Assembly (NCBI GenBank): GCA_019637975.1
Contig: JAHBUR010000024.1
Location: 1-63,249 of the forward strand
Direction: 5' to 3'
Source of the DNA: Bacteroidota bacterium
GTDB lineage: Bacteria > Bacteroidota > Ignavibacteria > UBA10030 > UBA6906
Length of the DNA stretch: 63,249 nt
Made by a program: the position numbers and the translations under genes. A model generated the notes under the pieces. That model did no database searches. It saw nothing but the letters and a program-made list of their open reading frames with translations, and was not told where the DNA came from. This document shows positions 21,900 through 53,878 of the stretch, piece by piece (positions within the stretch are counted from its first letter, which is position 1; each line of letters starts with the position of its first letter).

Positions 21900-22128
21900 C
21901 TCTTGCGAAGCAAATCACTTACAAGCAATATGCCAGTATTATCGAAGAAGGGTAACTCGCAGAAAACTGCCTTAAAATCGACAATATTTCACTATGTGAG
22001 TCAATGGGAAGGGAACCGATTGTTACGTTATGATCCAGATTGGCACGTAGATGCAACAGAATGTTACATCCTCCGACGTCAAAGTGTTACACCAATGTTC
22101 TACCTGAGGAGGTATGGACGATCCTGAT

Positions 22129-22932
22129 CTAGTCCTTCTCCATTTTCAAGACTTCAGACGTAACCAGTCTTGCTGCAACAACCGAGATGTTATCGTCACT
22201 GTGATTTGCTTCGGCTTGGTGAATGAGTTTCTCCGCTACCAGATCGAAGCCGGTGGTGTTGAGAGTATTCTGAATCTCCATATCAGAAACGGCAGACGTC
22301 AGACCATCAGAGCAAAGAACGAGAGTATCTCCCGCTGCAATATTGCCGCAATAGAGATGCGGCTGGACAATCCTTTGCGGACCTATGGCTTGTGTAAGGA
22401 CATGCGACAGGTTGCGTACACTTGGGCTGAACGGGTTGAAGTACATGCTATCCATTGCATGATCGCGACTGAGCAATTTCAGCGTGCCGTTCCGAAACAA
22501 GTATGCCCGGCTATCGCCTACGTTGATAACGACAAGGGCACTGCCGACAATCAGAGCAGCCACAGTCGTTGTACCGAAACCCTTTTCTTCGTACGTCCTC
22601 CTCCCCTCCTCATACACGAGGCGGTTCATCTCGACAATCGACTCAGAAAGAGACTCCTGCGGATTCGGGTTTGCGTTCTCAAGATAAATCCAGGGCAGCA
22701 ACGTAGTGACCATCGCGCTTGCATGTTCACCGGCTTCCATCCCCCCCATACCATCTGCAACTATCAGAAGGGTTCCTTTTTCAGGCAAACCCTGATCTGA
22801 GAAGTTGACAACGGCCAGACTATCCTCGTTACGATCACGAACAGGGCCTTTCTCGCTTGTGCAAACGAATTGAACGACAGACTGTTTTTCACTGGCTATG
22901 ACATGTGTTGAATTCAACATGAGAATCAGCAT
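22129..22932 (-). CDS. PP2C-family (Stp-type) Ser/Thr protein phosphatase
   Basis: A 267-residue metal-dependent protein phosphatase. All main motifs are visible: RDRNEDS near residue 35, VADGMGGMEAGEHAS, GFGTTTVAALI, NVGDSRAYLFR, VLCSDGLTSAV and DDNISVV at the C-terminus. These supply the acidic residues for two or three Mn/Mg ions. Such phosphatases reverse the action of Hanks-type kinases; one is encoded 3.3 kb away (26274-29966), so it is the natural counterpart. The start overlaps the upstream kinase gene by 44 bases at ATG 22932, or 32 bases if ATG 22920 is used. Confidence 0.93.
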   Translation of the reverse strand: MLILMLNSTHVIASEKQSVVQFVCTSEKGPVRDRNEDSLAVVNFSDQGLPEKGTLLIVADGMGGMEAGEHASAMVTTLLPWIYLENANPNPQESLSESIVEMNRLVYEEGRRTYEEKGFGTTTVAALIVGSALVVINVGDSRAYLFRNGTLKLLSRDHAMDSMYFNPFSPSVRNLSHVLTQAIGPQRIVQPHLYCGNIAAGDTLVLCSDGLTSAVSDMEIQNTLNTTGFDLVAEKLIHQAEANHSDDNISVVAARLVTSEVLKMEKD

Positions 22933-24235
22933 AATCCGGTTTGTGTTGTGAAAGCGGGAGCGAGATGATGAACACTACCCCTTCCCCTTTTTTTGATTGA
23001 ACTGAGATCGTCCCTCCATGCCCTTCAATAATCTGCTTGCAGATTGGAAGTCCGTAGCCGTGGCCATCGACTTTCGTTGTGATTTTCTCTGCAAACAGAC
23101 GGTCAAGAATTGATTCGTCTATACCGGGGCCGTTGTCTCTGACCAGAAGGCGTACTACATTCATGGCGGCATCGTATTCCGTCTGCAACGTGATTGCTGC
23201 AAACTGATCGGCTTCGACACTGTTATTTACGAGGTTGAGAAGTACCTGTTGAATCTGATCGGTATCAAGATCAACGGCCGGTATCTGATCACCCAGAACG
23301 GCTTCAATGCTGTTCCGTTTGAATTTGGGCAAAAACATGACAAATTCGACAAAATCAGAGGCGACCTTATTCAGACTGCCGGGCACAAGTTTCGATGTGC
23401 TCGGACGCCTGTTCAGAAGGCTCTTTGAAAACCCCTCAATCTTGCGTGCGCCCGTGATGGTCTTCTCTATCAATCCGCTAATCTCATCAATTGAAACATT
23501 GCCCGATTTGCGTTGCATCAGTTCGAGGTTCAGCAACACGACTGCAACGAGATTCTTTAATTCATGGCTTACTTCGGCCGCAAGTTCTCCCTTCATCGCC
23601 ATGCGTTCGGACTGGATGATGTATTGGTTCGCTTGCTTCAGTTCTTCATACGTCCGTTTGACGTTGTCATACAGACGGGCATTGTTGATCGCAATGGCAG
23701 CCTGCCCGGCAAGGATCTCAAATACGCTCAGGATTTCGTCCTTCTCGACAGCCTGAATGAACTTGCTATCCACATAGATGACACCGATTTTCTGGTCATG
23801 GGTCTGCAAGGGGCTGCAGATGATCGTCTGCAACTCAAGATTCATGATGCTTTGTCGCCTCTCGAACCGCTCATCATTCAAGGCATTCTCAATACACAAC
23901 GATTCGCCGGTGGCAAACACGTCGTCGAGCACACTGGAACTCACCTGAAAACTCTCGGCTCGTATCGATTCGCCCTTGGCATTCCTGCCGATAACGAATT
24001 CGAGTTTACCATCGTTATTCGCCAGCATCAAAAACCCGCGCTCGGCCATTGCGAGCCTGATCGCTTCATCGGTAACAAGCTCAAGCACTTCATTCAGTTC
24101 AAGAGAGGTGTTGATCTTCCGAACGATATTGAGGATCGTCTCAATATCGCGGACGGTCGAGCGTAGCGGCGGATCAATCACATCAACCGGCGCTTCAACC
24201 GTAAGGCTCTGCCGCATTAAATCGTCAAGATTCAT
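22889..24235 (-). CDS. GAF-domain sensor histidine kinase (copy 2)
   Basis: A 448-residue cytoplasmic histidine kinase and close paralogue of the kinase at 19276-20568 over the full length. The GAF domain covers about residues 45-190 (VTDEAIRLAMAERGFLML and KIGVIYVDSK). His224 in EVSHELKN is the acceptor. The ATP lid region reads DNGPGIDESI and DGHGYGLPICKQI. It adds an 18-residue tail, overlapping the PP2C gene, that copy 1 lacks. It heads a two-gene operon with the PP2C phosphatase. Pairing of a histidine kinase with a Ser/Thr phosphatase suggests cross-talk between the two phosphorylation systems. Confidence 0.92.
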   Translation of the reverse strand: MNLDDLMRQSLTVEAPVDVIDPPLRSTVRDIETILNIVRKINTSLELNEVLELVTDEAIRLAMAERGFLMLANNDGKLEFVIGRNAKGESIRAESFQVSSSVLDDVFATGESLCIENALNDERFERRQSIMNLELQTIICSPLQTHDQKIGVIYVDSKFIQAVEKDEILSVFEILAGQAAIAINNARLYDNVKRTYEELKQANQYIIQSERMAMKGELAAEVSHELKNLVAVVLLNLELMQRKSGNVSIDEISGLIEKTITGARKIEGFSKSLLNRRPSTSKLVPGSLNKVASDFVEFVMFLPKFKRNSIEAVLGDQIPAVDLDTDQIQQVLLNLVNNSVEADQFAAITLQTEYDAAMNVVRLLVRDNGPGIDESILDRLFAEKITTKVDGHGYGLPICKQIIEGHGGTISVQSKKGEGVVFIISLPLSQHKPDYADSHVEFNTCHSQ

Positions 24236-24841: not shown

Positions 24842-26263
24842 TCATTGTTTAGCGCTACGCAGGATGCGGTCAAGTCGGGGGCGTGACACCTTCAGTATAC
24901 GCGCCGCTTTCAGCTTGTTTCCGCCGGCATATTCAAGCACCTTTTTAGCGAGCATCGCTTGAACTTCCTTTGCCGAGGCTTGATCAAGGGGAACGAGGAG
25001 CATGAGAGTCTCCATAGTCATGGTCGGGAGCGCATCGCTTGATCCGCTGACGATGCGTTTCTTCGGTGGACGTATTGTCCGGTCCTCAAAATCAAAATCG
25101 TCTTCAGTGAGCCAGTCACCTTCTTCCAACAGAACAGCCCGTTCAATTGCGTGTTTGAGCTCACGCACATTTCCTTCCCAAGAATGCTGCATGAGAAGGT
25201 GCATGGCTTTCGGAGCTATGCCCTTGATCTTCTTGGTGTATGTGTGATTGAAAGACTTGAGGAATGCTTCCGCGAGAAGTGGAACATCCTCCATGCGTTC
25301 GGCAAGGCTCGGCAATTCCAACGGCAGTATTTTCAAGCGATGATACAAATCCTTCCGGAATTCATTTGCCCGGATTTTTGCGGACAGATCGGCACTTGTT
25401 GCGGCAATGATCCGGGCACGCACGGACACGTCGCGTATTCCTCCAACTCTCCGCATTGTCCTGTCCTCAATGACTTTGAGAAGCTTGGACTGAATGGCGG
25501 GGGAGATATCTCCTATCTCATCCAGAAAAATCGTCCCCTCACCGGCAAGCTCAAACAGCCCGATCTTTCGCTCCTTGGCATCTGTGAACGCCCCCTTTTC
25601 GAAACCGAATAGCTCGGCTTCAAGCAATGTTTCGGGAAGAGCGCTGCATGCAATGTCGACGAACGGGCCGTTTCTGTTCGCGCTGTTGTAATGGATTGCG
25701 CGTGCAAAGAGCTCCTTTCCCGTTCCGGTTTCGCCGGTAATCAGGATTGTTCGTGCATTATTCTTGATAACTTTCCGGGCCCGCTCGATGGTTTGCTTCA
25801 GAAGCGGCGATGAACCGATAATCGAACGAAAGTCGTACACCTCCTGCTGAATCTCGACAAAGCGGCTTTTTTGCTTCTTTGCCTGCCAGTCGTTGTAGAG
25901 GAGGTTGAGCTCATCACGGATTTTTCTGTGCTCATCCGGCACTATGAAATACGCGGAAACACCGAGTTTTACCAAATCAACCGCAAAACTGTGATCCGGC
26001 TCTTGAGCGATGGCGACAATCGGCACATCGGGGATCTCTGAACAGAATTCCTTCAACGACGATCGCAACGTAAGACTATCACGCGTGACATCAATGAGGA
26101 CAAGCCTTGGCACATTAAACAACGCCCTGCCGACCAGAAACGATGGCGAGGATGCAAACTGAAGATGAACATCTTCGGCTGGAGTGATCAGACGGCGTAC
26201 ATCTGCCATCATTTCTTTGCGGCCGCAAAGCAATATCGTAAACCGGTCTTTTTTTGTGGGCAC
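24842..26263 (-). CDS. Sigma-54-dependent transcriptional activator with receiver-like domain
   Basis: A 473-residue NtrC-type activator. Residues 1-125 resemble a receiver domain, with Asp58 in LVLIDVT at the usual phospho-acceptor place but weak surrounding motifs. The AAA+ domain has Walker A GETGTGKE (177-184) and Walker B FLDEIGD (246-252). The sigma-54 contact loop reads GAFTDA (224-229) in place of the usual GAFTGA. A Fis-type helix-turn-helix ends the protein (NKLKAARILKVSRPRLDRIL). The GTG start at 26263 is 10 bases after the kinase-TPR gene, and GAGG overlaps that gene's stop. It is the likely output of the peptide transport and kinase operon. Confidence 0.93.
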   Translation of the reverse strand: MPTKKDRFTILLCGRKEMMADVRRLITPAEDVHLQFASSPSFLVGRALFNVPRLVLIDVTRDSLTLRSSLKEFCSEIPDVPIVAIAQEPDHSFAVDLVKLGVSAYFIVPDEHRKIRDELNLLYNDWQAKKQKSRFVEIQQEVYDFRSIIGSSPLLKQTIERARKVIKNNARTILITGETGTGKELFARAIHYNSANRNGPFVDIACSALPETLLEAELFGFEKGAFTDAKERKIGLFELAGEGTIFLDEIGDISPAIQSKLLKVIEDRTMRRVGGIRDVSVRARIIAATSADLSAKIRANEFRKDLYHRLKILPLELPSLAERMEDVPLLAEAFLKSFNHTYTKKIKGIAPKAMHLLMQHSWEGNVRELKHAIERAVLLEEGDWLTEDDFDFEDRTIRPPKKRIVSGSSDALPTMTMETLMLLVPLDQASAKEVQAMLAKKVLEYAGGNKLKAARILKVSRPRLDRILRSAKQ

Positions 26264-26273
26264 GTCTGTTTCC

Positions 26274-29200
26274 TCAGGTTTTGACGATCGAGTCTATTGT
26301 TGCAAGGACCCGGTCTTTTTGATCAATCGCAAGGTAACTGGACTTCAACTTGTCGGATGAAATATGAGAAAGAAAGAACTGCACAATAAGTCTCGTCTTG
26401 ATGAAATACTCCTTCGCACGATCGCGCTGCCCGCGGTTGAAGTACTCCCCTGCCAGCGCGTACGCCAGCTTCCATGTTATTTCTGTGACAGGTTCTTTCG
26501 CAAGGATATCCATTCCCCGCTTGAACAGGACAATCGGCTTTTCGAGCCCTTCGGCGTGCGTCGAACCGGCGCAGATACCAAGGATAAAATTGGCCTCGGC
26601 GAGGTAGCGCGGATGACGGCGTACCTCTTGTTCACAAAGTATCCCGTTGGCGAGTGAAATCGCCTCGTCGTTTTTTTCCAATTTGTTCAAACACTCGGCT
26701 AATCGCAATTGGGATTGCCAGAGTATGTCATTTGCCTTTTCCTCACTTGATACCTGCATTGCATCCCGGAAAGCCACGCAGGCTTCGCCATGCCTCCCGC
26801 CAAGATAGTGACGCAACCCTTGAAGAAGCCGGTAGCGCGCAAAGAACATCCGCTGGCCTTCATTCTCAATTAAGAGTTTTGCTTCCTCGAGCCTCGCCTC
26901 TGCAACATCAAGTACGCCGAGAGCAAGAAGGGCCTGTACACCGTACAACAAGCTATATACGTGGTGGTACATGTTTTCCATTACTTCGGCCAAACCTCGG
27001 GATTCGTCGAAAAAGGAAACAGCCTTCTCATATTCACCTTCGGCAAGCGATACTTCTCCGAGATTCGCGATTACCAACGCGAGACCTGCCATCGAATCAA
27101 TCCGTTGGTATTGTGAACGTGCCTTATCGTAATACTGTTTTGCAGCGCCGTATTTCCTGAGGCTATAATGCGCAATCCCGAGGTTATTGTGAATCAAGGC
27201 TTGCTGATGCATTGTGCCGAAATCCTCACTTGCCTTTAGTGCCCGGTGCCAAAACTCAATGGCCCGCTCGGTGTCGCCTTTCCTGCTCAGAACATTACCA
27301 ATGTTGTTCATCGAGTTGATCACCTGCGTTCTTTCCCCCGTCGATTCATACTGTTTCATCGCCTCACTGAAGCACTCTACAGCATCATCGAAGCGTTCCT
27401 GATAAAAGGTTGCAATCCCGAGGTTGGTATAGATGTCGCCTTTCAGCCGGTTTGATTCCAATCCGGCGGTTTCCCCGAGTTGCTGCAAGCAATCCTTTTC
27501 AGCTTCCGCAAATCGACCCGTAGCAATCTCAAGTCCGACCAACTCCTGCCGCAGTTCAAGCTGTTCCGCTTTGTCGGTTGTGGCGCGCAGGGCGGCGCTC
27601 AGAAGTTCCTGAGCAAGATCATTTTCTCCAAGCCGGGATGCTGAAAATCCCATTACCTTGGAAAGCTTGGCTCTCTCGGGGGGCAGAAGAGCCGTACTAT
27701 CCTCAAGTTCCCGACATAACGCGATCGCTTCCCGATATGAACCAGTTTCGTAGAGTGCCAAGGCCAACTTTGCCTGAACGGCTACTTCACCACGAACATG
27801 CCGGTTTGCCTTTGCAAGGTCTATGGCACTACAATACAATTGCAGTGAACGCTGAAGAGCAAACAACTTCATTCCTTCGTCGGCAGCCCGCTCGTAACAG
27901 GAGAATGATTGCATGTACTTGCCGCATCCGGAAAACTGGAAGGCGAGTTCCTGCAGTCCTTCAAATCCCCCGGAACTTTCCTTATCACGTTCCAGCGTTG
28001 CCGAGATCAGCGAGTGCAGTTCAGGTTTCTCATCCTGAATCCGTTCGTAGATTGCATCTTTCAGTCTCTTCATTCTTATGAAGACACGCTGTTCGGAACT
28101 CGTAATAAATTCATCGAGATGCAGAAACCGAAGGTGTTCCGACATGCGTTGCGGGTGAAAGGGAAGAAGTCCGGCGAGGATATTCTCTTTCACCGGAAAT
28201 TGGAAACATGCAAGAATGCTGAGTACTAGCTGCCTCTCACGGCTCAGTTTGTTGAAACGAGCAAGGAGGAAGGCATCTATCGTTCGCGGGAGTTTCGTCT
28301 CCAATCCGGAAACAAATTCCTTCCCCATGTCGGGCTGTGTCAGCGCGTCGGCCGGAACCATTGACAGCACGGCGTTGAGCGCCTCCACCACGACGGCCGG
28401 CGTGCCGCCATACAAAGTATTGAGCAAGGAACTGATTGAACGGACTACGGGAGTTTGCCCGAGAACCGACTGACTTATCTCGGCAATCTCCTCAGCAGTC
28501 AATTCACCCAAGTGAAGCTCTTCAGCAATCGTCGGCGGAAAAACTGTTGCCCTTTCAGCGGTTTCCGCGGCAAGTACGAAAACCCTCCCCTTTACTGCGT
28601 TGCGAATGGTTGTGCGTACGACTTGTACCGACGCATCATCGAGAAGTTGCGCGTTATCAATTGCTACGGCAAAGGGAAATACATCCGAGCAAGCAACAAG
28701 AAATCGTGCCAGAAGCTCGGCAATCTCATCCTTCCTTCCACCCCACTTTTCAAAACGATGCGCGGGTTCCGCACCTAAACCAATCAGTTGATCGAATCTC
28801 TCGAATACCATTCTCCCTGGTTCCGAGAAGGAACGAATGTCCGCAATGAGGGGCTGAAGAATTTCAGATATGCTGTCGAAGGGAACATCCGAACGAATCG
28901 GGTTGATTTCGTATACTGTCAAACCGGAGGATCGTGCATGCTTCAGAGATTCTCTGATCACAGAAGTTTTCCCGATCCCCTCCGGTCCCGTCACGCTGAT
29001 GGCTAAGCGGGAAGGCGCTTCTCCGTCAATCCCCAGTGCTGAGAAAGCACGCTGAATCGTTGCAAGTTCCTGACGGCGGCCGACAAAACGGGACGATCGC
29101 GCAAGGCCGAAATATAATTCATACAACTCGACCCCGTTCTGCATTGACGAACTGAGCTTTCGTGCGGCCTCTTCCGCAGTGGCAAACCTGCGGGAGGGAA

Positions 29201-29966
29201 GCTTCTGCATAAGTCCCAGAATGACTTCTCGCGTGCGGGTTTTTCCAACCCCGGATGCAAAGTGAGGTTCCTCGGAAAGAACACGTTTGGCCAGTTCCAC
29301 CGGGGTTCCTGCTTCAAACGGGGGGTGTCCTTCAAGCAAGTGAAAGAATGTGGCTCCCAGCGAATACAAGTCCAGCCGATGGTCGCATTCCTCGCCCTTG
29401 AGGCATTCCGGCGCCGTGTACTCCAGTGTCCCCCGGACGGAAATGTCAAGCGTCTCCTCTTTCTTCTTGCTAAAGCCAAAGTCGGCCAATTTGAGCAACG
29501 GCCCCGCCGCCAATTTGCCTTCATCGACAACCACAAGATTCTGCGGCTTGATATCGAAGTGAACAATGCCTTCACGATGGATGTACGAGAGAACGCTTAA
29601 GGCCTGGAGCAGAAGGAGTTCAAGTTGTGATTCCTTTTTGTCATCATTGAACCCAAGCCATGCGAGCGTATCGACACCATTCAACAATTCCATCGTGAAG
29701 AACCGTCTCTGAAGAATGGCCTCGTCCGCGTGACGTATCGTGCCGAAGTCGAATATCCGGATCAGATTTGGGTGCGAAAGGGCAAGCAGCGCCGATACTT
29801 CATTCTTGAAGACTTCATCGGCCTCCGTATCGGATTCCCCTGAGCGATGGAGAATTTTCATTGCCATCTGTTGATTCTTCCGGCAGGTGTCTTCCACCAG
29901 AAAAACCTCTCCGCTTCCACCGACACCTAATCTTTCAAGAACGGTGTACCGGAAGTTGATCGTCAT
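26274..29966 (-). CDS. Ser/Thr protein kinase fused to STAND-type ATPase and TPR array
   Basis: A 1230-residue soluble protein. Residues 7-270 form a Hanks-type kinase: Gly-rich loop GVGGSGEV (14-21), Lys37, likely Glu56, catalytic HFD (136-138, usually HRD) with Asn143, and D162-F-G. Residues about 305-640 form an AAA/STAND ATPase (FVGRRQELATI, Walker A GPEGIGKT, Walker B-like FAVAIDNAQLLDD). The rest, about 700-1215, is a TPR array (TNLGIATFYQERFDDAVECF, ALIHNNLGIAHYSLRKYGAA). The design resembles PknK-type regulators. ATG 29966 overlaps the permease stop by ATGA, so I reject the frame extended to 30239. It probably senses a ligand or partner through its TPRs and phosphorylates downstream regulators. 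Confidence 0.92.
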   Translation of the reverse strand: MTINFRYTVLERLGVGGSGEVFLVEDTCRKNQQMAMKILHRSGESDTEADEVFKNEVSALLALSHPNLIRIFDFGTIRHADEAILQRRFFTMELLNGVDTLAWLGFNDDKKESQLELLLLQALSVLSYIHREGIVHFDIKPQNLVVVDEGKLAAGPLLKLADFGFSKKKEETLDISVRGTLEYTAPECLKGEECDHRLDLYSLGATFFHLLEGHPPFEAGTPVELAKRVLSEEPHFASGVGKTRTREVILGLMQKLPSRRFATAEEAARKLSSSMQNGVELYELYFGLARSSRFVGRRQELATIQRAFSALGIDGEAPSRLAISVTGPEGIGKTSVIRESLKHARSSGLTVYEINPIRSDVPFDSISEILQPLIADIRSFSEPGRMVFERFDQLIGLGAEPAHRFEKWGGRKDEIAELLARFLVACSDVFPFAVAIDNAQLLDDASVQVVRTTIRNAVKGRVFVLAAETAERATVFPPTIAEELHLGELTAEEIAEISQSVLGQTPVVRSISSLLNTLYGGTPAVVVEALNAVLSMVPADALTQPDMGKEFVSGLETKLPRTIDAFLLARFNKLSRERQLVLSILACFQFPVKENILAGLLPFHPQRMSEHLRFLHLDEFITSSEQRVFIRMKRLKDAIYERIQDEKPELHSLISATLERDKESSGGFEGLQELAFQFSGCGKYMQSFSCYERAADEGMKLFALQRSLQLYCSAIDLAKANRHVRGEVAVQAKLALALYETGSYREAIALCRELEDSTALLPPERAKLSKVMGFSASRLGENDLAQELLSAALRATTDKAEQLELRQELVGLEIATGRFAEAEKDCLQQLGETAGLESNRLKGDIYTNLGIATFYQERFDDAVECFSEAMKQYESTGERTQVINSMNNIGNVLSRKGDTERAIEFWHRALKASEDFGTMHQQALIHNNLGIAHYSLRKYGAAKQYYDKARSQYQRIDSMAGLALVIANLGEVSLAEGEYEKAVSFFDESRGLAEVMENMYHHVYSLLYGVQALLALGVLDVAEARLEEAKLLIENEGQRMFFARYRLLQGLRHYLGGRHGEACVAFRDAMQVSSEEKANDILWQSQLRLAECLNKLEKNDEAISLANGILCEQEVRRHPRYLAEANFILGICAGSTHAEGLEKPIVLFKRGMDILAKEPVTEITWKLAYALAGEYFNRGQRDRAKEYFIKTRLIVQFFLSHISSDKLKSSYLAIDQKDRVLATIDSIVKT

Positions 29967-31177
29967 GCCTGCCTCACCCCGTCTTTCACGGCATAGTGAA
30001 GCGCAATCAATACAGCGGCAAGCAACGCTCCCGGGAAGAATCCAAGCCACCATCCGGAATGTAGAGAACTCACTGCTTGCCACAACATGTTCCCCCAACT
30101 TGCGGTCGGCGGTTGAATGCCGAGCCCCAGAAAACTCAACGAGGCCTCCGCCAAGACGGCACTGCCGAACTGGAGGGTGGCGGCAACGACGAGAATGGGT
30201 TTCAGATTCGGGAGGATGTGTTTCCGGAGTATATTCCAATTCGATTGATGTAGGAGTTTTGCCGCGAGGATGAATTCCTTCTCACGTAATCGCAGTACCT
30301 CGGTTCGAACCGTTCGGGCTATCCCCATCCACCCAGTGAGGGAAAGGAGGATGATGAGAGATGTGATTGATGTCCCCAAAAATGCCATCACGGCAACAAC
30401 CAGAAAAATGCTTGGAATGGAAAGCATAAGGTCAGTCAGACGCATCAGGAGAGTGTCAAGCAGAGGATTCGTGTATCCAGCCAGGAAGCCGATGGCGACA
30501 CCGATCAGAAGAGAACCAATTGCAGCACATAGCCCGATCCCCAACGACACCCGGGTGCCGAACACAACGCGACTGAAAACATCCCGCCCGACATCATCAG
30601 TCCCGAAAAGAAATCGCATAGGTCTCGCTTCCGTCGCAAATGGTTCCATCAGTTCATTGTTGGACGCAGCGTTGAAGGAGATGTTCTGTTGCAGCACTAT
30701 GTTATTTGATTGTTCATATAATCGTCGGAGTGGACTCAGCTCCACCATTTCCGCATCTTGCGGAACTGTGTGTACAAGGGCGCCCCGGCTCAACGGACCA
30801 AGCAACCGTGTCGTAACGAGATCCCCCTGTTTGTTCGGGCCGAATAGTGTCACAAAGGGGGCGCAAACAGCAATAAAAGCCAGAATCGCCAGAAAACCTA
30901 CAGGGCCTGACATCCGCTCCTGAGCAACCAACTGACCTTTGAAGTGCTGCCGGATTTTCCACACAACATATACTCCGCCGCCAAGCCATACAACCGCAGC
31001 AAGCCAAAACTCCCAGATATCGTGTCTCCAATACGTTGCCGGAGATGTCAGTTCCGAAAGAGTCAGGAGGCTATACGAACACAACGAAACGACACTCGCC
31101 ACAATCTCATCAATCTTTCTCCATGACAGAAGGAGATAGATGACAAGACCGGCACCGAGTAGCGTGATTCGTCTCAT
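29963..31177 (-). CDS. Dipeptide/oligopeptide ABC importer permease, DppC/OppC type
   Basis: A 404-residue inner-membrane permease. The C-terminal part is typical of DppC/OppC: FGTDDVGRDVFSRVVFGTRVS, then the coupling (EAA) loop KLLHQSNWNILRKHILPN, and LSFLGLGIQPPTASWG. The N-terminal 130 residues are longer than usual, with extra hydrophobic segments before the conserved core. The start is ATG 31177, where TAATG joins the DppB-type stop and this start. Its stop overlaps the kinase-TPR start by ATGA. So transporter and kinase are made from one message in fixed order. Confidence 0.93.
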   Translation of the reverse strand: MRRITLLGAGLVIYLLLSWRKIDEIVASVVSLCSYSLLTLSELTSPATYWRHDIWEFWLAAVVWLGGGVYVVWKIRQHFKGQLVAQERMSGPVGFLAILAFIAVCAPFVTLFGPNKQGDLVTTRLLGPLSRGALVHTVPQDAEMVELSPLRRLYEQSNNIVLQQNISFNAASNNELMEPFATEARPMRFLFGTDDVGRDVFSRVVFGTRVSLGIGLCAAIGSLLIGVAIGFLAGYTNPLLDTLLMRLTDLMLSIPSIFLVVAVMAFLGTSITSLIILLSLTGWMGIARTVRTEVLRLREKEFILAAKLLHQSNWNILRKHILPNLKPILVVAATLQFGSAVLAEASLSFLGLGIQPPTASWGNMLWQAVSSLHSGWWLGFFPGALLAAVLIALHYAVKDGVRQA

Positions 31178-32142
31178 TATGATCCCCCGATCCGCAACCG
31201 CGGGTCGATGCATGCATTAAGGATGTCGGCAAGCATATTACCGGCAATCACGACAATTCCGGCGACAAGCGTACACCCCAGTATGAGGGGATAATCACGC
31301 GCGTAAATCGCCGCAACAGTCAACTGCCCCATCCCGGGCCACGAAAACAAAACCTCCGTCACCATAACGCCGGACAGCAAAATCCCGATCTCAATTCCTA
31401 TAAGCGACACAATCGGCGTAATTGCATTCGGCAAAACGTACATACCGAAGATTCTACCTTGCGACAGTCCCATACTTCGAGCATGAAGCACATACGGTTG
31501 CTGCATCACGGAGGACACGTTACTTTGTAGGTACCGCGCCAGCCCGGCAGCGGCGGGGATGGCCGCGGTGCACGCCGGCAATACAAGATGATGCAGAATA
31601 TCGGGTACCGATCCGGCTTGCCCTGATGTGAACATCTGGGATGATGGAAAAACGCCGAGTCCGTATGAAAAAACAACGAGCAACATAATGCCGACCCAAA
31701 ACGATGGCAGCGCATATGCAACCAGCAGCGCGTTTGTGAGAACCATCCCTACCCGTTCCCGCTTTGAAAAGAACGTCGCGGCCGCAAGCGATATGCCCAA
31801 CACTACTTCAAGAAACAACGCAGCACCGGCAAGAAGAATAGTGTTCGGAAACACTTCCCCGATTATTTCAGCAACCGGCGCGTGCCGTGTCAATGACATT
31901 CCCAGATCGCCGGTAATAACCGAGCCGAGCCAAAGCCCGTATTGTTCGAGCAGAGGCCGGTCCAGCCCGAATTGCCTTTGCAATTGATCCCTGACGGATT
32001 CCGGAATAGATGGGGAGAGAAGCGCATCCGTCACACTGCCGGGCAGCAACCGGGAAAGGAAGAACACGATTGTCACCAGGCCGAGAATGAGGGGAACTGC
32101 TTCGAGAATACGTCTGAGAACGTAGTAGAAAAGTGACGCCAA
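31177..32142 (-). CDS. Dipeptide/oligopeptide ABC importer permease, DppB/OppB type
   Basis: A 321-residue permease with the DppB/OppB start (LFYYVLRRILEAVPLILGL), the segment FGLDRPLLEQYGLWLG, the coupling loop ARSMGLSQGRIFGMYVLPNA and the end WPGMGQLTVAAIYARDYP. About six transmembrane helices are expected. It pairs with the DppC-type permease downstream to form the membrane channel for peptides taken from the binding lipoprotein. It starts 17 bases after the binding protein gene. The ATPases needed to drive it are not in this operon; candidates lie at 38015-39599. Confidence 0.94.
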   Translation of the reverse strand: MASLFYYVLRRILEAVPLILGLVTIVFFLSRLLPGSVTDALLSPSIPESVRDQLQRQFGLDRPLLEQYGLWLGSVITGDLGMSLTRHAPVAEIIGEVFPNTILLAGAALFLEVVLGISLAAATFFSKRERVGMVLTNALLVAYALPSFWVGIMLLVVFSYGLGVFPSSQMFTSGQAGSVPDILHHLVLPACTAAIPAAAGLARYLQSNVSSVMQQPYVLHARSMGLSQGRIFGMYVLPNAITPIVSLIGIEIGILLSGVMVTEVLFSWPGMGQLTVAAIYARDYPLILGCTLVAGIVVIAGNMLADILNACIDPRLRIGGS

Positions 32143-32159: not shown

Positions 32160-33848
32160 CTATCGGGTTTGTGGGGTCTCAACGCGCCACTCCCATGCAT
32201 TGTGAGTCGTTCCGAGAATGCCAATGTGTGTTCCTTGCACCCGGGTGCGCACACCGGTGATGTTGTTGATCCAGAACAGGAAGGTGTACGGCTGCTCATC
32301 GTACACGATCGCTTGAAACTCTTTCCATAAATGAGCCCCCTCCGTTTCGTCGGACAGCGACCGTACGTCCGCAAGGATGGCATCAACGCGCGGATGTCGG
32401 AAACCTGCAAGATTGAACGGATATTTCCTCAGGTCGGAACCCCACAGATCATCCAATTGCATCTGCAGTGGAACGCTGAATCCGGCAAACCACGCGTCAT
32501 ACGATCGCTGCATCAGATTACTCCAGAACGTGCCGCGTTCCACCTGTTCAATCTTCATTTCAATCTTCACCTCCTTCAACTGTTGTTGAATGACTGTAGC
32601 CATCAGGTTGCGAAGTTGGTTGCCCGAAGCCAGCTTCAACGTGAACATAAACTTCACTCCGCGTTTGTCGAGAATCCCGTCACCATCGGAATCTCTCCAT
32701 CCCTCCTTCTCCAGAATATTCGCTGCCTCTGCCTTATCGAACGGCAGCGGCTGTAGTGTATCGTTGTATGCCCATCGGAACAGCGGCGACACGCCGCCGA
32801 TAGCTTCCTGTCCGTGCTCGCCAAGATATGCTCGCACAATTTCACGCCGGTTGATCGCCATTGTGAGCGCCCTCCGAACCCGGGATGAGCCGAACAACGG
32901 ATGCGGCCTGATTTCACGCCCCGCCGCTTTTGTGTATGTTTCGGGATCGATGTTATTCCATCCGATAAAATCATAATCCCGACCGACAGTAGAGATGATT
33001 TTGATGGATGGATATTGCGAGGGCAACTCGGCTTCTTCAAGACGCAAGCCCGATACGATATCAACCTCACCGGATTTCAACTGCTCAACTCGTGTCCTGT
33101 AGTCAGGCAAGATCTTGAACACCAGTTGAGCCAACTTCGGTGTGAATGGTTCAATGGGGAATGTGGTTGGCTCAAGAACGACTTCTTGCAACGGATTCCA
33201 TCGGGCTATTGCAAACGGGCCGGCTGTTGTTGGAGTCTTGTTGTGCGCACTTGTACGGATTTCTTTCCTCGGAATGCCGCTGAAGATATGTGAGGGAACG
33301 ATCGGGAGTCCTACATCAAACAACTGTCCCGGACGCGCTTGTTCGAAATGAAACACGATCGTGGAATCAGTCAGCACACTCATGCTCTTGGCAACTTCGA
33401 GCTTGCCGTTCGTTCGCCGGAAGTTCTGCACGGCACTTTGGCGTACGCTCGCAACAATCGTGTCACCGTACAATTCAAAGGAGAACTGTACGTCGCGGGC
33501 TGTCACCGCAACGCTGTCCGACCATCGAAAATCAGTTCGAAGGTGAAATGTCACATCGCGCTGATTGCTACTGAACTCCCATGACTTGGCAAGATACGGT
33601 GTGAATTCCAGTGACCCTTGTGAAGCGTTGAATTCGGGGTGGATAAGGCGGGGGAAGAGAAGATCGTTGATTTCGCCGGCAACTATCTCCCGGGCGAAAA
33701 GCGGATTGAATGTGTCGATGTCGCCTTCGATAGCGACGGTGACTGCGGTACGCTCACGATCTTGCGTACCGCATCCCCCGACAGTAATAGAAACCGCAAC
33801 TATCGACAAAAACGACGATAGCTGCAATACAACAATGTTCTTACACAT
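32160..33848 (-). CDS. Peptide-binding lipoprotein of ABC importer (SBP family 5)
   Basis: A 562-residue extracytoplasmic solute-binding protein of the OppA/DppA family. The signal peptide ends with a lipobox (TVGGC, Cys26). The family signature follows: EGDIDTFNPLFAREIV, then AKSWEFSSNQRDVTFHLR and FRWSDSVAVTARDVQFSFE. The family binds di- to oligopeptides, nickel chelates or sugars; the permease types favour peptides. It is first in the operon and has a near-consensus promoter just upstream. As the specificity protein it would decide which peptide reaches the coupled kinase and activator. Confidence 0.93.
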   Translation of the reverse strand: MCKNIVVLQLSSFLSIVAVSITVGGCGTQDRERTAVTVAIEGDIDTFNPLFAREIVAGEINDLLFPRLIHPEFNASQGSLEFTPYLAKSWEFSSNQRDVTFHLRTDFRWSDSVAVTARDVQFSFELYGDTIVASVRQSAVQNFRRTNGKLEVAKSMSVLTDSTIVFHFEQARPGQLFDVGLPIVPSHIFSGIPRKEIRTSAHNKTPTTAGPFAIARWNPLQEVVLEPTTFPIEPFTPKLAQLVFKILPDYRTRVEQLKSGEVDIVSGLRLEEAELPSQYPSIKIISTVGRDYDFIGWNNIDPETYTKAAGREIRPHPLFGSSRVRRALTMAINRREIVRAYLGEHGQEAIGGVSPLFRWAYNDTLQPLPFDKAEAANILEKEGWRDSDGDGILDKRGVKFMFTLKLASGNQLRNLMATVIQQQLKEVKIEMKIEQVERGTFWSNLMQRSYDAWFAGFSVPLQMQLDDLWGSDLRKYPFNLAGFRHPRVDAILADVRSLSDETEGAHLWKEFQAIVYDEQPYTFLFWINNITGVRTRVQGTHIGILGTTHNAWEWRVETPQTR

Positions 33849-33958: not shown

Positions 33959-36904
33959 TTAGTTCTTGAGAAGCTTGAACGAAACGAACCACTCATCGGA
34001 ATGCCTGCCATTAATCCATGCCCGCGCCGCACCGGCAGAGAGTGTAGATTCCAGATTGAACCAATGCCTGAAAACACCATTCATCTGAAACCCCGCATTG
34101 ACACCAAACCACCTGCTGCCATTTGCGAGAAGTGTTTGTGAAAACAGTGACGCGTCAATGTGGCTCAACAGGTGTTGCCCGAGAGAAACATCCCCGAATC
34201 GCAACGGCGGAAAGTTGTTCTCGACCATCAACTTTGCAAATCTATCAACGCCGATGCTGTAGATTGGAGCGCCGGGGAAACGGAAGATTGTGCGGAATTG
34301 CTTTGCGTCAACATTCTCAACTGCCCGATTTCCAAAACCGCCAAAATAGAATCGTGATTGAACAAGGTTCTTGTTTGTTGCATGATACCCTGCGGCCATC
34401 TTCAGATGCAGTACATTGTGCGGAGCGAGGTACGTCGTAAAGTGATCCCACTCTGTGTAGAGTTGCACTCCGAGTTCGGGCTTTCGCGGATTGGCTCCAA
34501 AGATCATCGCCGTTATCCCGATTTCATTGCCGAATTCGTGGTCGCTGCTGCCGATGGATCTCCGGAGGTATTGCGAGGTAAGCGTTGTGTGTCCGACAAC
34601 AAAATCCGGCTGCGATACCGGCACAAGATTGTCATTGATGAATTCGACTCCGCTGTAGAGTGTGAGTTCCGATCGTTGCTTCAACTTGTATGGATTGTCG
34701 TACACCCAATAGTGCGTATTGCCCAATCGGAATTGGTTGCCGTACAATCCCCGTTTCCTCTTGTTAAAGAGATCGTAGAAATCGGGACTATTGTACTCCC
34801 AACCGATCTCGAATGATTTCAGATACTCGTATTTCATGCGTAGGTGAAACTGCGCTGGCTGACTTCTCTCACGAAACGGGCTTACCCCTGTTTCGACGAC
34901 CAAATCATGATTCAGAATCGGGTCGGAAATATGGGTAAATACGCCGAGTACTTTTTTAGATTGAAATCCGGTAAGAACCGGAACGAAAGACACGACCTTC
35001 AATCGATCAAAGCCGTTGTATTCGTTGGCCGGCAGACTCTGTTCAGTTGTGTGAGGCCTTTCCTGCTGTGCAACGGCAAAGTCTGCAACATGCGGATACA
35101 TATCCTGAATCTGCTGTCCCAGATATTTGATGGCGGGAAGACGTTGTGCCGGGGTATTCGGAATGATTACCGGATAGAAACCGTCTGTTGAAAACTCAAA
35201 TGCAAACACTGAATCTTTGCTCAAATATAGCGGCTTGAACAAGCCAATGCGTGTGTGGCTGATTGCTTCAATTGTTCCGCTGTCCATGCTTCTTCTGTAG
35301 ATATTGGACACACCATTGGTGAACGCATTCCAATAGAGCCATTTGTTATCGGGACTCCAACTTGGATTCTCAGGTGAGCCTTCGTCCGTGATAACGGAAT
35401 ATGATGCAGGCTGGCCCTTGCGAATCTTGTCACAATCAGTGAGGACAATTGATTGACTGCCGTTTGCGCGATGAAGTACCGCTGCTAACCGGCTGCCGTC
35501 GGTACTCACCGCAATACCGTGTATTTCGTCTCCAATATCAAAATGTGTGTGTTCTACCAACGAATCATACGGCGGAGTAAAACTCACCAGCGATGCAATG
35601 CCGCCGCCATGGCGGATTCCCCAAAGTTCACCTGTAACAGGAGATACCGTCAGGTGTCCGACACGACAATCCTCGAACAGCATTCTCCGCTTTCCTGTTG
35701 CCACATCCAACATCCAAAGGTCACGATAGAATTGATTATTGTTGGTTGTGAAGAACAGCGAATTCGTTTCGTCATTGAGAGCAGTTGACGTCACTTGATG
35801 CGTACTGGGCGTGGGCAAGGTTTCGGTTTCGATCAATGTGCATGTTCCACGATCAAAGCGTTGAATTCCCGCGAGGTGATGGGGACGGTGCTCCGCCCAG
35901 TACAAAAATCTGCCTGACCTGTCAACATGAGGGTGCGAAACACCACCGGACCGTGTGTCAGACAATCGCGTGATCGGTGTTAGTTGGGCCCCTTCCAGTA
36001 TCGCAAGATTGGAGCGCTGAAACTGCTGTTCCGACTGCTCGAATTCTCTCCATGCCGTCCTGAATTCAGTTCCGTACGCCTGCTTGAATCGTTGGGAGAA
36101 GTTCCTATAGAAGCCAGTCTTTGGGGGAGTAAACCACTCAAAGAGTTTTGAAGTCCCGTATTGTTTGACGAGATGCGAAACAAACCTTCCACCATATGTG
36201 TAGTGATTTGTTTCCGTCAAGAATGATCGATGCGGGGTCTTTGATTCGAGATAAATATCCGAGGGAAACTCCTTCCCCTCTGCAACGAGGGATCGGAAGT
36301 ACATCTCATCAAAACTTCCCATTGTTCTTCCGAATCCACCACTCATCCACGTTTCCAGAAACACGGCAATACCCTCCTGATGCCACCGTGGCGTGTATCG
36401 TCCGTAATTGGTGAGCAGGCTATAGAGTACAGTAAGAGGCTGGCTTTGAACAGGAGCCACCTTTGAAAAAATGGAACGAGTGAACCTCTCTATGTTGGAA
36501 GCCAAATCGTTCACAACCACATGAACAAGTTCGTGATTCAGCAGCCACTGGAAACGCTCACTGTACGGAATATTCTCGTAACCGGGCTCGAGAGGCGAAA
36601 GATCAAGCCAAATGTAGTTCACAGGCACTGAAGATGCGGCAGCACCGCCATAGTCGTTTACGTCATGCGTATTGATGATTATTTTGCCCGACGGCGTATA
36701 CGAAAAGATGATACTGATGCGCTGCAAAGCTGCTTCTGCAGAGTTCAGAAGATGTTGAACCAGATGCGCATGCCCCGCCCGATAGATAACCCGGAAGTGT
36801 TGACTTTCGCTTTCGTACCACTGCACTTGCGCAGTCAGTCGATTCATGGCGCAAACGGCAATACTCAAGATAACAACAGTGGCCGACAACCGGACAAGTG
36901 ACAA
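33959..36904 (-). CDS. Secreted gluzincin-like metalloprotease with propeller and barrel-like domains
   Basis: A 981-residue exported protein. The first 25 residues are a signal peptide. The zinc motif HELVH is at 124-128 (LLNHELVHVVVND), and Glu177 in RWHQEGIAVFLE is the likely third ligand, an arrangement typical of peptidase-MA-like gluzincins. Residues about 310-600 contain TolB/WD-like propeller blades (SHPHVDRSGRFLYWAEH, then ENPSWSPDNKWLYWNA). The last 350 residues have many alternating hydrophobic and aromatic strands ending FVSFKLLKN, consistent with an outer-membrane beta barrel. It follows the tandem-repeat protein gene, separated by a terminator, so a role in processing that protein is possible but unproven. 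Confidence 0.85.
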   Translation of the reverse strand: MSLVRLSATVVILSIAVCAMNRLTAQVQWYESESQHFRVIYRAGHAHLVQHLLNSAEAALQRISIIFSYTPSGKIIINTHDVNDYGGAAASSVPVNYIWLDLSPLEPGYENIPYSERFQWLLNHELVHVVVNDLASNIERFTRSIFSKVAPVQSQPLTVLYSLLTNYGRYTPRWHQEGIAVFLETWMSGGFGRTMGSFDEMYFRSLVAEGKEFPSDIYLESKTPHRSFLTETNHYTYGGRFVSHLVKQYGTSKLFEWFTPPKTGFYRNFSQRFKQAYGTEFRTAWREFEQSEQQFQRSNLAILEGAQLTPITRLSDTRSGGVSHPHVDRSGRFLYWAEHRPHHLAGIQRFDRGTCTLIETETLPTPSTHQVTSTALNDETNSLFFTTNNNQFYRDLWMLDVATGKRRMLFEDCRVGHLTVSPVTGELWGIRHGGGIASLVSFTPPYDSLVEHTHFDIGDEIHGIAVSTDGSRLAAVLHRANGSQSIVLTDCDKIRKGQPASYSVITDEGSPENPSWSPDNKWLYWNAFTNGVSNIYRRSMDSGTIEAISHTRIGLFKPLYLSKDSVFAFEFSTDGFYPVIIPNTPAQRLPAIKYLGQQIQDMYPHVADFAVAQQERPHTTEQSLPANEYNGFDRLKVVSFVPVLTGFQSKKVLGVFTHISDPILNHDLVVETGVSPFRERSQPAQFHLRMKYEYLKSFEIGWEYNSPDFYDLFNKRKRGLYGNQFRLGNTHYWVYDNPYKLKQRSELTLYSGVEFINDNLVPVSQPDFVVGHTTLTSQYLRRSIGSSDHEFGNEIGITAMIFGANPRKPELGVQLYTEWDHFTTYLAPHNVLHLKMAAGYHATNKNLVQSRFYFGGFGNRAVENVDAKQFRTIFRFPGAPIYSIGVDRFAKLMVENNFPPLRFGDVSLGQHLLSHIDASLFSQTLLANGSRWFGVNAGFQMNGVFRHWFNLESTLSAGAARAWINGRHSDEWFVSFKLLKN

Positions 36905-36936: not shown

Positions 36937-36972
36937 TAAAAAAAAGCCTTCAACAATGAAATTGAAGGCTTT
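36937..36972 (-). terminator. Intrinsic terminator of the tandem-repeat protein gene
   Basis: On the minus strand AAAGCCTTCA (complement of 36963-36972) pairs with TGAAGGCTTT (complement of 36943-36952) around a 10-base loop, followed by a T-rich run to 36937. It lies 55 bases after the repeat gene stop and before the metalloprotease start. Confidence 0.88.
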
Positions 36973-37027: not shown

Positions 37028-37747
37028 CTAACGTCCGAAGATGTACGCACTACCGAGTGCTTCCACCTGTGACGCTGAACGTCCGAAGATGTACGCACTA
37101 CCGAGTGCTTCCACCTGCGATGCCGAACGTCCGAAGATGTATGCACTACCGAGTGCTTCCACCTGTGACGCTGAACGTCCGAAGATGTACGCACTACCGA
37201 GTGCTTCCACCTGTGACGCCGAACGTCCGAAGATGTATGCACTACCGAGTGCTTCCACCTGTGACGCCGAACGTCCGAAGATGTATGCACTACCGAGTGC
37301 TTCCACCTGTGACGCTGAACGTCCGAAGATGTATGCACTACCGAGTGCTTCCACCTGTGACGCTGAACGTCCGAAGATGTATGCACTACCGAGTGCTTCC
37401 ACCTGCGATGCCGAACGTCCGAAGATGTATGCGCTACCGAGTGCTTCCACCTGTGACGCTGAACGTCCGAAGATGTATGCGCTACCGAGTGCTTCCACCT
37501 GTGACGCCGAACGTCCGAAGATGTACGCACTACCGAGTGCTTCGATTTGTGAATTGGAACTCAGCAGAAGCTGATTGAATTGTGTTACTGCTACGTCGCT
37601 TGCAGGCTGTGACATAACCTGGGCAACGGGTGTGACGAGTTGAGCCACTCGAACGCGTGTAGCTTGTTCCACGTTCTCATGGCTGATGGCGCTCCCTGCG
37701 AAAACCAAAACCGCAAGGATAGCCATGATGAATTTGGTTTTCCTCAT
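37028..37747 (-). CDS. Secreted protein made of eleven 16-residue repeats
   Basis: A 239-residue protein I do not recognise. Residues 1-22 are a clear Sec signal peptide (FIMAILAVLVFAGSAIS). Residues about 23-63 form a unique, Val/Gln-rich spacer. From residue 64 to the end there are eleven 16-residue repeats; the first is SNSQIEALGSAYIFGR and the other ten are identical copies of SASQVEALGSAYIFGR. Each unit ends in Arg, a possible cleavage point, and the protein stops at the end of the last unit. It has its own RBS (GAAGGAAG), promoter and terminator. It could be a multi-copy peptide precursor, a beta-solenoid or amyloid fibre protein, or an adhesin stalk. Divergent importer ATPase genes lie on one side and a metalloprotease gene on the other. 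Confidence 0.8.
   Translation of the reverse strand: MRKTKFIMAILAVLVFAGSAISHENVEQATRVRVAQLVTPVAQVMSQPASDVAVTQFNQLLLSSNSQIEALGSAYIFGRSASQVEALGSAYIFGRSASQVEALGSAYIFGRSASQVEALGSAYIFGRSASQVEALGSAYIFGRSASQVEALGSAYIFGRSASQVEALGSAYIFGRSASQVEALGSAYIFGRSASQVEALGSAYIFGRSASQVEALGSAYIFGRSASQVEALGSAYIFGR
37031..37558 (-). repeat. 48-bp tandem repeat array, 11 units
   Basis: Eleven in-frame 48-bp units without spacers. Units differ only at a few third-codon positions (for example Ser TCA/TCG, Ala GCG/GCA, Ser AGT/AGC). All changes within the last ten units are silent. The unit has no stop codon in several frames, which creates long false frames on both strands. Confidence 0.95.
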
Positions 37748-37830
37748 GGGGGACTTCCTTCACTAGTGATACTTCAGTGAATTATGTTATGTAAAGCGGC
37801 ACCTTAGGAATCCGCTTCCTTTCGCAGAAA

Positions 37831-37859
37831 AACATAGGATATTCACCAATCACTATCAA
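37831..37859 (-). promoter_or_regulatory. Probable promoter of the tandem-repeat protein gene
   Basis: On the minus strand TTGATA (37854-37859) and TATGTT (37831-37836) are 17 bases apart, 83 bases before the start codon. A TCACTAGTGA palindrome lies between the promoter and the ribosome site, at about 37761-37770. Confidence 0.55.
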
Positions 37860-37901: not shown

Positions 37902-37931
37902 AATTATCTACGTTGTATAACGTAGATAATT
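37902..37931. promoter_or_regulatory. Perfect 13-bp inverted repeat between divergent genes
   Basis: AATTATCTACGTT (37902-37914) and its exact complement AACGTAGATAATT (37919-37931) flank a GTAT spacer. The element lies between the repeat-protein gene (leftward) and the importer ATPase gene (rightward). It overlaps a possible rightward -10 (TAATAA, 37898-37903) whose -35 could be TTACGT (37876-37881). There is no T run, so an operator for a dimeric regulator fits better than a terminator. Confidence 0.75.
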
Positions 37932-38014
37932 CGGATTCAGGCCAGTTTTTGGTCGAATTTCTCCATGTGCTCTGGAACGTGGGATTGGGAGTGGAATTCC
38001 TTAAATTCATACTC

Positions 38015-38833
38015 ATGGAAGCACTTCTATCCGTTGACCATCTCACTGTAACCACACCAGAGAAGGGTGAAGTCCGAACAGTCGTAGACGATGTTAGTTT
38101 CTCGCTGCGTAACGGACAGGTACTTGCTATAGTCGGAGAAAGTGGAAGTGGAAAGACTTCAATCTGCAGGGCACTGACACGACTCAATCCATCCTCATAC
38201 ACAACGACTGGAATTGTCAGGTTTGATTCGAAAGACCTGCTGACATGCAATGATGAGATGCTGCAAGATATCCGCCGCCACCGCATACGATATATCTTTC
38301 AGGAACCACATCAGGCACTGAATCCTGCTCTCACTATTCGCAGTCAACTATTGCTTTCATCCGGCAGGAAATCACCTGCAACCGGTGATTTGCACAACCT
38401 GTTGGCCGCAGTAGGACTCCGACACACACAGGAAGTACTCAACTCGTACCCGCACAAACTTAGCATTGGAATGGCCCAGCGAGTGATGATTGCCATGGCA
38501 GTTCTGCCGCAACCTTCCTTGCTCGTTGCCGACGAACCGACAAGCGCTCTCGATGCTTCACAACGTTACAAGCTTCTTGATCTTCTCAAGTCGATTCACA
38601 CTCAACACGGCATGGCAATGATTATTGTCACGCATGACCTTGAGCTGGCAAGACTGTATGCCGACGACATCGCTGTTCTAAGAAACGGACAGATCATCGA
38701 ATACAAAACAACAGCCAGTTTCTTTCGTTCTCCCAAAGCGAACTACTCCAAGTTGTTGATCGACGCCATGTCCATGACCGACAGAGGCAGGCCACGCATG
38801 GTCAAAGGAAAGGGTGACGATGCCACTGCTTGA
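38015..38833 (+). CDS. Peptide ABC importer ATPase, DppD/OppD type
   Basis: A 272-residue ABC ATPase. Walker A is GESGSGKT (41-48), the Q-loop lies in YIFQEPHQALNPALT, and Walker B is LLVADEPTSALDAS. The signature motif reads LSIGMAQR (149-156), where DppD relatives usually have LSGGM. The phrase QEPHQALNP and pairing with a second ATPase are typical of the Dpp/Opp group. The frame opens earlier at 37913, but family members start near ATG 38015. It probably energises the permeases of 29963-32142, which lack ATPase genes. Its start lies 84 bases after a perfect palindrome. Confidence 0.9.
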   Translation: MEALLSVDHLTVTTPEKGEVRTVVDDVSFSLRNGQVLAIVGESGSGKTSICRALTRLNPSSYTTTGIVRFDSKDLLTCNDEMLQDIRRHRIRYIFQEPHQALNPALTIRSQLLLSSGRKSPATGDLHNLLAAVGLRHTQEVLNSYPHKLSIGMAQRVMIAMAVLPQPSLLVADEPTSALDASQRYKLLDLLKSIHTQHGMAMIIVTHDLELARLYADDIAVLRNGQIIEYKTTASFFRSPKANYSKLLIDAMSMTDRGRPRMVKGKGDDATA

Positions 38834-39599
38834 AGTAACGAACCTCTCAACTTCAGTCCGAATCAGTTCATTTGCAGGATTCAGAATCGTCCGGAGACTT
38901 GTACTTGATAGAATCTCATTCTCCATTGAGGGAGACGAAAGTTTCGGTGTATTAGGTGAAAGCGGAACAGGCAAATCGACACTTGCCCGATGCATAGCAG
39001 GATTGCAGCAACCTGATAGCGGCAAGATTCTATATAAGGGCGTCAGTCTGTTTCCGCAGAAAGCACATCGAAGCCAATTCCCTCTTGAATTGCAGATGGT
39101 GTTCCAGGCAGGTGGAGCTTCGCTTGACCCGACGATGAGCATTGAGGAGTGTCTGTTGGAGGGAATTGCGGCTCAAGAACTTTCAAGCAGCAAGCAAGAT
39201 GCCGTGACACCGGACTCGCTCCTCGATTCTGTCGGCTTGCGACCTGAGTTGCTTTCACGATATCCGTTTGAACTGAGCGGAGGCGAGCGTCAGCGCGTTG
39301 CTCTCGCTCGTGCGCTTGCGGCAAAGCCACGGCTGTTACTGTTAGACGAGCCGACCTCAGCACTCGATCTGCTGACACAAGCTGAGATCATCTCACTTTT
39401 GCAATCCATCCGGCAGAAAGAGCAGCTTTCCTTTCTTCTGATAACCCACGATGTAAAACTGGCATTGTTCCTCTGTGACAGGATCGCCGTTCTTCACCAA
39501 GGAAGGATTGTCGATGAGGGTACGGTGAATGAACTTCTCTCGTTGCACAATCATCCGTACACGGCGCAACTGTTTGCTGATGCACGACTCAGTTCTTGA
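38820..39599 (+). CDS. Peptide ABC importer ATPase, DppF/OppF type
   Basis: A 259-residue ABC ATPase with Walker A GESGTGKS (46-53), signature LSGGERQR and Walker B LLLLDEPTSALD. It starts inside the last codons of the DppD-type gene (14-base overlap), so the two are co-translated as the usual heterodimer. ATG 38820 is chosen; GTG 38814 in the same frame is possible. It ends with an 11-base tail-to-tail overlap with the ABC exporter gene. With the DppD-type protein it should complete the importer encoded 5 kb away. Confidence 0.91.
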   Translation: MPLLEVTNLSTSVRISSFAGFRIVRRLVLDRISFSIEGDESFGVLGESGTGKSTLARCIAGLQQPDSGKILYKGVSLFPQKAHRSQFPLELQMVFQAGGASLDPTMSIEECLLEGIAAQELSSSKQDAVTPDSLLDSVGLRPELLSRYPFELSGGERQRVALARALAAKPRLLLLDEPTSALDLLTQAEIISLLQSIRQKEQLSFLLITHDVKLALFLCDRIAVLHQGRIVDEGTVNELLSLHNHPYTAQLFADARLSS

Positions 39600-53678: not shown

Positions 53679-53878
53679 AGTTTGCTCCTTGTTGTTGACC
53701 GGAATCTTACAAACAGCTAACTGTGTTAACGCAAAGCGTGTGCCACCACGAAAACAAGGCGGTTTGAGGGATGAAGAAAGGATTGGAACGCCAAAGTGTA
53801 GCTTCAGGTATGCAGTCGTCTAAAATGGAGGACGCAGAATTTCTGCCACAGTAGGAATATTGAGGGAATTGCGAACTC

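Follow-up and report, generated by a model that had tools for sequence, protein, structure and literature searches.

A secreted protein of near-exact 16-residue repeats, linked to an oligopeptide importer in Ignavibacteria, suggests a previously undescribed peptide-signalling system

What could a bacterium gain from secreting a protein that repeats one 16-residue unit exactly while the underlying DNA drifts? Such a protein is encoded in the window, the whole stretch of 63,249 nucleotides of a Bacteroidota bacterium analysed here. The first-pass annotation described it as a secreted product of eleven units, ten of them identical and differing in DNA only by silent changes; this observation is confirmed, and its reading of the protein as a whole is supported in part. 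The gene, REP (37028-37747, minus strand), encodes 239 amino acids, composed of a Sec signal, a short leader (NVEQATRVR) and eleven 16-residue units, with the Arg of the last unit as C-terminus. The array of eleven 48-bp units (37031-37558, minus strand; TRF score 923) reaches the stop codon and is directly followed by an intrinsic terminator with a 12-bp stem and a T run (36943-36972, minus strand), which is also present in the sister species, G001. Unit 1 reads SNSQIEALGSAYIFGR. Units 2-11 share the sequence SASQVEALGSAYIFGR, which is written in eight DNA versions with five variable codons, all silent (pS 0.161, pN 0). An antisense frame over the array (37041-37574, plus strand) has third codon positions that coincide with those of REP. 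The same changes are also silent in this frame, and the strand therefore cannot be told from silence alone; leader, terminator and homologues establish it. The number of copies depends on the assembly, since several related assemblies break within the array.

Profile searches of related genomes revealed that REP is not an orphan. A first profile of three sequences recovered divergent members across the phylum sample, and a ten-member profile identified the family in 28 of the 391 genomes of the class, distributed over 15 genera and three families; the carriers are the window's genus and the families f7 and f14. The common plan is a signal peptide, a conserved mature N-terminus (N-V-E-x-A-x-R-x-R-V in the alignment), a variable linker and 16-residue units. 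The Sec-type signal was read from the alignment as a signal-like N-terminus ending in A-Q in most members. The units run to the protein end or near it, many arrays ending the protein exactly at the unit-final residue, and the complete arrays read have up to 16 copies. Among 27 species there are 25 distinct units, with the consensus SNSQLEELGSRYGFxR, invariant Q4, L8 and G9 and a nearly invariant S1. On this point the first reading does not hold as stated: the unit is not constant across relatives, and nearly each species has its own, exact or nearly so inside the array. Free amino-acid variation among homologues' repeats had been named as evidence against the first reading; the variation found lies between species, with near-identity within arrays, and neither confirms nor overturns that reading. 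The terminal Arg noted in the window holds for 20 of the 27 species and is replaced in seven, by Lys in five and by Thr in two (G582 and G673), so that a basic residue closes the unit in 25; most units also have an internal Arg. Unit length is near-constant across the family, except in G393, with mostly 15-residue units. In this array (L136 5468-6319, minus strand) the length switches from 16 to 15 residues after the first two copies and therefore can change in concert. As the first-pass annotation suspected, the unit belongs to no known family: neither the libraries nor the literature searched, including Ignavibacterium, Melioribacter and Kapabacteria combined with tandem repeat, hold a description of it.

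Selection on the exact unit, which had been proposed from the window alone, is borne out by a pooled within-array pN/pS of 0.066 over about 28 arrays, many of them at pN 0. Because the units are near-identical within each species but not between species, and purifying selection acts on them, the arrays are a case of concerted evolution. The odd units are often the first and the last, the middle of the array being less divergent, which is the expectation under unequal exchange. This pattern and the variable copy number could also be read as a neutral or slippage-born repeat without any unit-specific role. The low pN/pS argues against that reading, as does the fact that three families share a conserved leader, promoter and cluster, and we regard it as very improbable.

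The genes around REP are those of a peptide importer and of regulators. On the minus strand of the window, REP is followed by zn981 (33959-36904), encoding a secreted protein with a predicted gluzincin domain (HELVH...E), a PD40 propeller and a putative outer-membrane barrel-like C-terminal region. Next come an oligopeptide-binding lipoprotein (SBP, 32160-33848; SBP_bac_5, its top NCBIfam model, Opp4A, being below cut-off), two Opp-type permeases (31177-32142 and 29963-31213), pk1321 (26274-30239; Ser/Thr kinase, AAA_16 and TPR by Pfam) and an NtrC-like sigma-54-dependent AAA+ activator (24842-26263). Two GAF-domain histidine kinases (22889-24235, with a relative at L128 composed of GAF and HATPase_c, and 19276-20622) and a TPR protein, TPR403 (20540-21751), which recurs in several REP loci, complete this strand. 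The OppD-type (37913-38833) and OppF-type (38814-39599) ATPase genes are on the plus strand, divergent from REP. The usual order in f7 and f14 is oppF-oppD (divergent), SBP, permease, permease, kinase-AAA-TPR, activator, REP, zn981 and a TPR protein and/or GAF kinase, the activator adjoining REP in most loci; the order in G393 resembles that of the window. At the REP locus, permeases, ATPases, kinase-TPR and NtrC each occur in 21-22 of the 28 genomes, and the genomes without them mostly have contig ends there. An NCBIfam mob_CxxC match was rejected as far below cut-off, and a plasmid search found none. The f7 and f14 copies of zn981 (44-54%) are closer to the window's zn981 than the copies of the window's own family are (31-34%), so that the cluster probably came in by horizontal transfer, or else the rest of the family lost it.

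Within the window's genus, G001 has the same REP gene, place and unit as the window, with different silent codon choices. In its assembly the array is broken, and a second REP-like place (C27) was rejected as a paralogue. Most likely C27 belongs to the same array, on the far side of the break, because zn981 follows the C27 place and oppDF precede the first one; the C27 contig end has an apparent Illumina adapter tail inside the array (L013 2066-2138). In G002, REP is cut by a contig end, has an N-terminal part 45% identical to that of the window and carries the unit SSSQLEMLGSYYIFGR. Between the window's genome (G000) and G001, the REP 5' UTR and leader (37540-37835 in the window, minus strand) are almost unchanged, with a leader pS of 0.033. 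Other genes of the pair differ at ~35% of synonymous sites, with a pS of 0.28-0.39 for the neighbours of REP and 0.30-0.37 for ribosomal proteins and RpoA, and unit 1 differs silently at four of its 16 codons. The fold of the 5' RNA is better than that of shuffled sequences (z -3.2). Other species pairs have a mild reduction of 5' divergence or none.

The activator has a counterpart in the REP promoters. In most loci a TGGCAY-N5-TTGC element precedes REP by 49-119 bp. Using this element within 150 bp upstream as the criterion and 104 other genes of the same loci as background, we found that the threshold is reached in 20 of the 21 REP loci outside the window's genus, G200 and genus g50, versus 13% of the control genes. 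The missing promoter in G200 and g50 fits the absence of the activator, which was not found at either REP locus; in g50 (G118 and G108) ECF sigma and anti-sigma genes adjoin REP. In the window's genus the activator is present and the -24/-12 promoter is absent, the regions upstream of REP in the window, G001 and G002 scoring like shuffles, so that REP control must differ there. It may act at an 18-bp palindrome between REP and oppD (CTACGTTGTATAACGTAG, 37908-37925), an operator candidate kept in G001 and G002. A genome search found no second copy, and the palindrome was rejected as a regulon site for that reason. A weak sigma-70-like promoter candidate of REP (37831-37859, minus strand) scores no better than chance. 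Elsewhere in the window, sigma-54-like sites occur upstream of the TPR/GAF-kinase genes (21921-21935, minus strand; TGGCATATTGCTTGT) and of 52872-53678 (53731-53745, minus strand; TGGCACACGCTTTGC), their total not being above chance.

The findings on the gene itself, the family, the cluster, the promoter and the selection are secure. Their best single account, which we consider evenly balanced between right and wrong, is that REP is a precursor carrying its peptide in many copies, which are cut free in the envelope and brought back in by an Opp system of their own. REP would be exported by Sec as the precursor of a secreted peptide of 16 residues or fewer and cut in the envelope or outside the cell. 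The released peptide would be bound by the SBP of the adjoining importer and carried inside, where it may be sensed by the kinase-ATPase-TPR protein, the GAF kinases or both, with REP as their target by way of the sigma-54 activator, closing a species-specific circuit. The near-exact unit peculiar to nearly each of the 28 genomes, the linkage to Opp, kinase and NtrC genes, the sigma-54 promoters and the basic unit end, with which many of the proteins terminate, all argue for such a precursor. The unit-final Thr of G582 and G673 and the internal Arg of most units argue against it, as do the five genomes without an SBP gene at the REP locus (G184, G617, G650, G200 and G582).

If a peptide is imported, its binding protein should carry a trace of it. 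The distances between units were compared with those between cluster proteins by partial Mantel tests in the 14 genomes with the full set. With the other six cluster genes taken into account, SBP distance still correlates with that of the unit (partial r 0.44, p 0.001); the jackknife range, with NtrC and the first permease as controls, is 0.39-0.56, and the correlation is 0.59 without the window's genus, 0.52 without genus g252 and 0.51 with rank distances. The kinase has a weak correlation (partial r 0.32, p 0.02; range 0.32-0.52), which is lost without g252. In these 14 genomes the permeases, the ATPases and the NtrC activator have no residual correlation with unit distance. For zn981, too, there is no co-divergence. 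With a sample of 14 and a test as liberal as the partial Mantel, the co-divergence of SBP and unit beyond shared ancestry is support, not proof. The first-pass annotation offered a multi-copy peptide precursor or a fibre; the former gains from this co-divergence and from the conserved cluster. The more specific proposal of a pheromone, in which the single gene would provide some 4 to 16 copies of a 16-mer peculiar to the species, a co-evolving SBP would capture the peptide released outside for import, and a TPR-kinase would sense it with feedback through sigma-54, so that the peptide would be the "pherotype" of the species, is tentative, and we think it somewhat more probably wrong than right.

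The enzyme that would release the peptide might be zn981. Its gluzincin metallopeptidase motif (HExxH and a downstream Glu) has H124, E125, H128 and E177 invariant in 19 sequences; its profile had no match in PDB. In g252, zn981 is degraded or was not found (L151 5949-6527; L152; L149), with REP and the rest intact, and therefore it is not an obligatory REP processing enzyme. Another reading is that REP is the substrate of an envelope sensor, cleaved by zn981 under stress, with the fragments imported and sensed, so that the cell would monitor itself and not signal to others. The position of zn981 beside REP and the kinase, histidine kinases and alternative sigma control of the cluster are consistent with this; the g252 genomes and the lack of co-divergence of zn981 with the unit argue against it, and we consider it quite improbable. 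In eight genomes of other genera of the window's family, zn981 adjoins a membrane-anchored tandem-repeat protein (GTIG) in an ECF sigma operon, an association that would suit the sensor reading and also a structural partner. The GTIG proteins have an N-terminal transmembrane segment, the motif GTIGAxKYRxxQIxxxDVxL and repeats between 6 and about 20 residues long (6, 9, 16 and 18), and no description of them was found in the libraries searched. Their genes (L056 4057-4944, L058 3917-4882, L060 4572-5663, L075 415-1731 and L077 1477-2817) are in ECF sigma/anti-sigma operons, where a zn981 orthologue adjoins in the cases checked. Like REP, GTIG genes lie directly upstream of the zn981 orthologue under dedicated sigma control, and a similar A-x-[RK]-Y-R-x-x-Q motif follows the membrane segment (weak, hhalign p ~0.01). 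Unlike REP, the proteins are membrane-anchored, with other repeat lengths and sequences, and no Opp genes were seen in the loci read, which also weighs against the precursor. Direct homology of the REP leader and the GTIG N-terminus gave no signal at first; larger alignments gave an 8-column match, p ~0.01, and it was set aside as a hint only.

The main rival of the precursor, which we hold to be unlikely, is a structural rod (beta-solenoid or amyloid-like) in the envelope or outside, whose identical units would stack into a fibre. The sigma-54 or ECF control would then serve high expression, zn981 would place or trim the rod, and Opp would recycle fragments or sense the envelope state. AF2 models REP as a beta-solenoid (array pLDDT ~95, pTM 0.71, three-row alignment), and Foldseek matched this model to generic parallel beta-helices (top Z 15.2), with nothing at E<0.001. 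Because AF2 is known to yield confident false solenoids for perfect repeats (PMC11795689), the antisense non-coding frame of the array was folded as a control. It also gave a solenoid (pLDDT ~74, pTM 0.53), and the REP model is therefore weak evidence. The gap in confidence is only suggestive, since REP had a three-row alignment and the control was folded as a single sequence. The anchored repeat proteins beside zn981, the ECF genes beside REP in g50 and the near-constant unit length would agree with a rod, which does not predict the linkage to a complete Opp importer or the co-divergence of SBP and unit. The REP sequence had nothing in PDB below E 0.2. Pfam matches to ALTTAQ_rpt, Nucleoporin_FG and Mpt_N were rejected as compositional, because three other REP proteins match different, unrelated models. 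Even if structural, REP would stand for a protein family not described before, with about ten genes in its conserved regulatory cluster, and would clearly exemplify arrays that evolve in concert while purifying selection is strong.

Cleavage of REP, peptide import, sensing and signalling we infer, and together with the cluster they suggest a previously undescribed peptide-signalling system. The Phr/RRNPP systems of Gram-positive bacteria, which use TPR-containing cytoplasmic receptors, may be what it works like, and not a family to which it is shown to belong. RRNPP receptors are composed of HTH and TPR; the TPR of pk1321, assigned by Pfam, is joined to a kinase and an ATPase, and no HTH-TPR regulator of the RRNPP type came to notice in the cluster. 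Yeast alpha-factor precursor has a signal, a pro-region and tandem near-identical peptides with basic residues at the unit borders. REP resembles it in signal, pro-region, tandem copies and basic borders, and differs in being bacterial, without a Kex2-type dibasic spacer or shared sequence. Curli CsgA and ice-nucleation protein are secreted proteins of short tandem repeats, the latter also of 16 residues; REP has no sequence match to them, and no curli- or Fap-type secretion genes were noticed nearby, a peptide importer being linked instead. In Phr signalling, the precursor is exported by Sec, matured extracellularly and imported by an oligopeptide permease (PMC7595303). REP shares the Sec-exported precursor and the permease, its maturation and import being proposed only. 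It differs in having up to 16 copies of one 16-mer, a Gram-negative-type lineage, a kinase-AAA-TPR protein with a sigma-54 activator, and Opp genes linked to the precursor gene in place of a general importer. If the precursor model is true, it would bring Opp-based peptide signalling with a yeast-like multi-copy precursor to a Bacteroidota-type lineage, together with some two dozen species in which the joint divergence of ligand and receptor is already on record. Beyond the TPR and GAF-kinase genes, the window also encodes a large secreted protein (13971-18077, plus strand), whose C-terminal end reads as a type IX secretion sorting motif (NYPNPFNPSTTI...).
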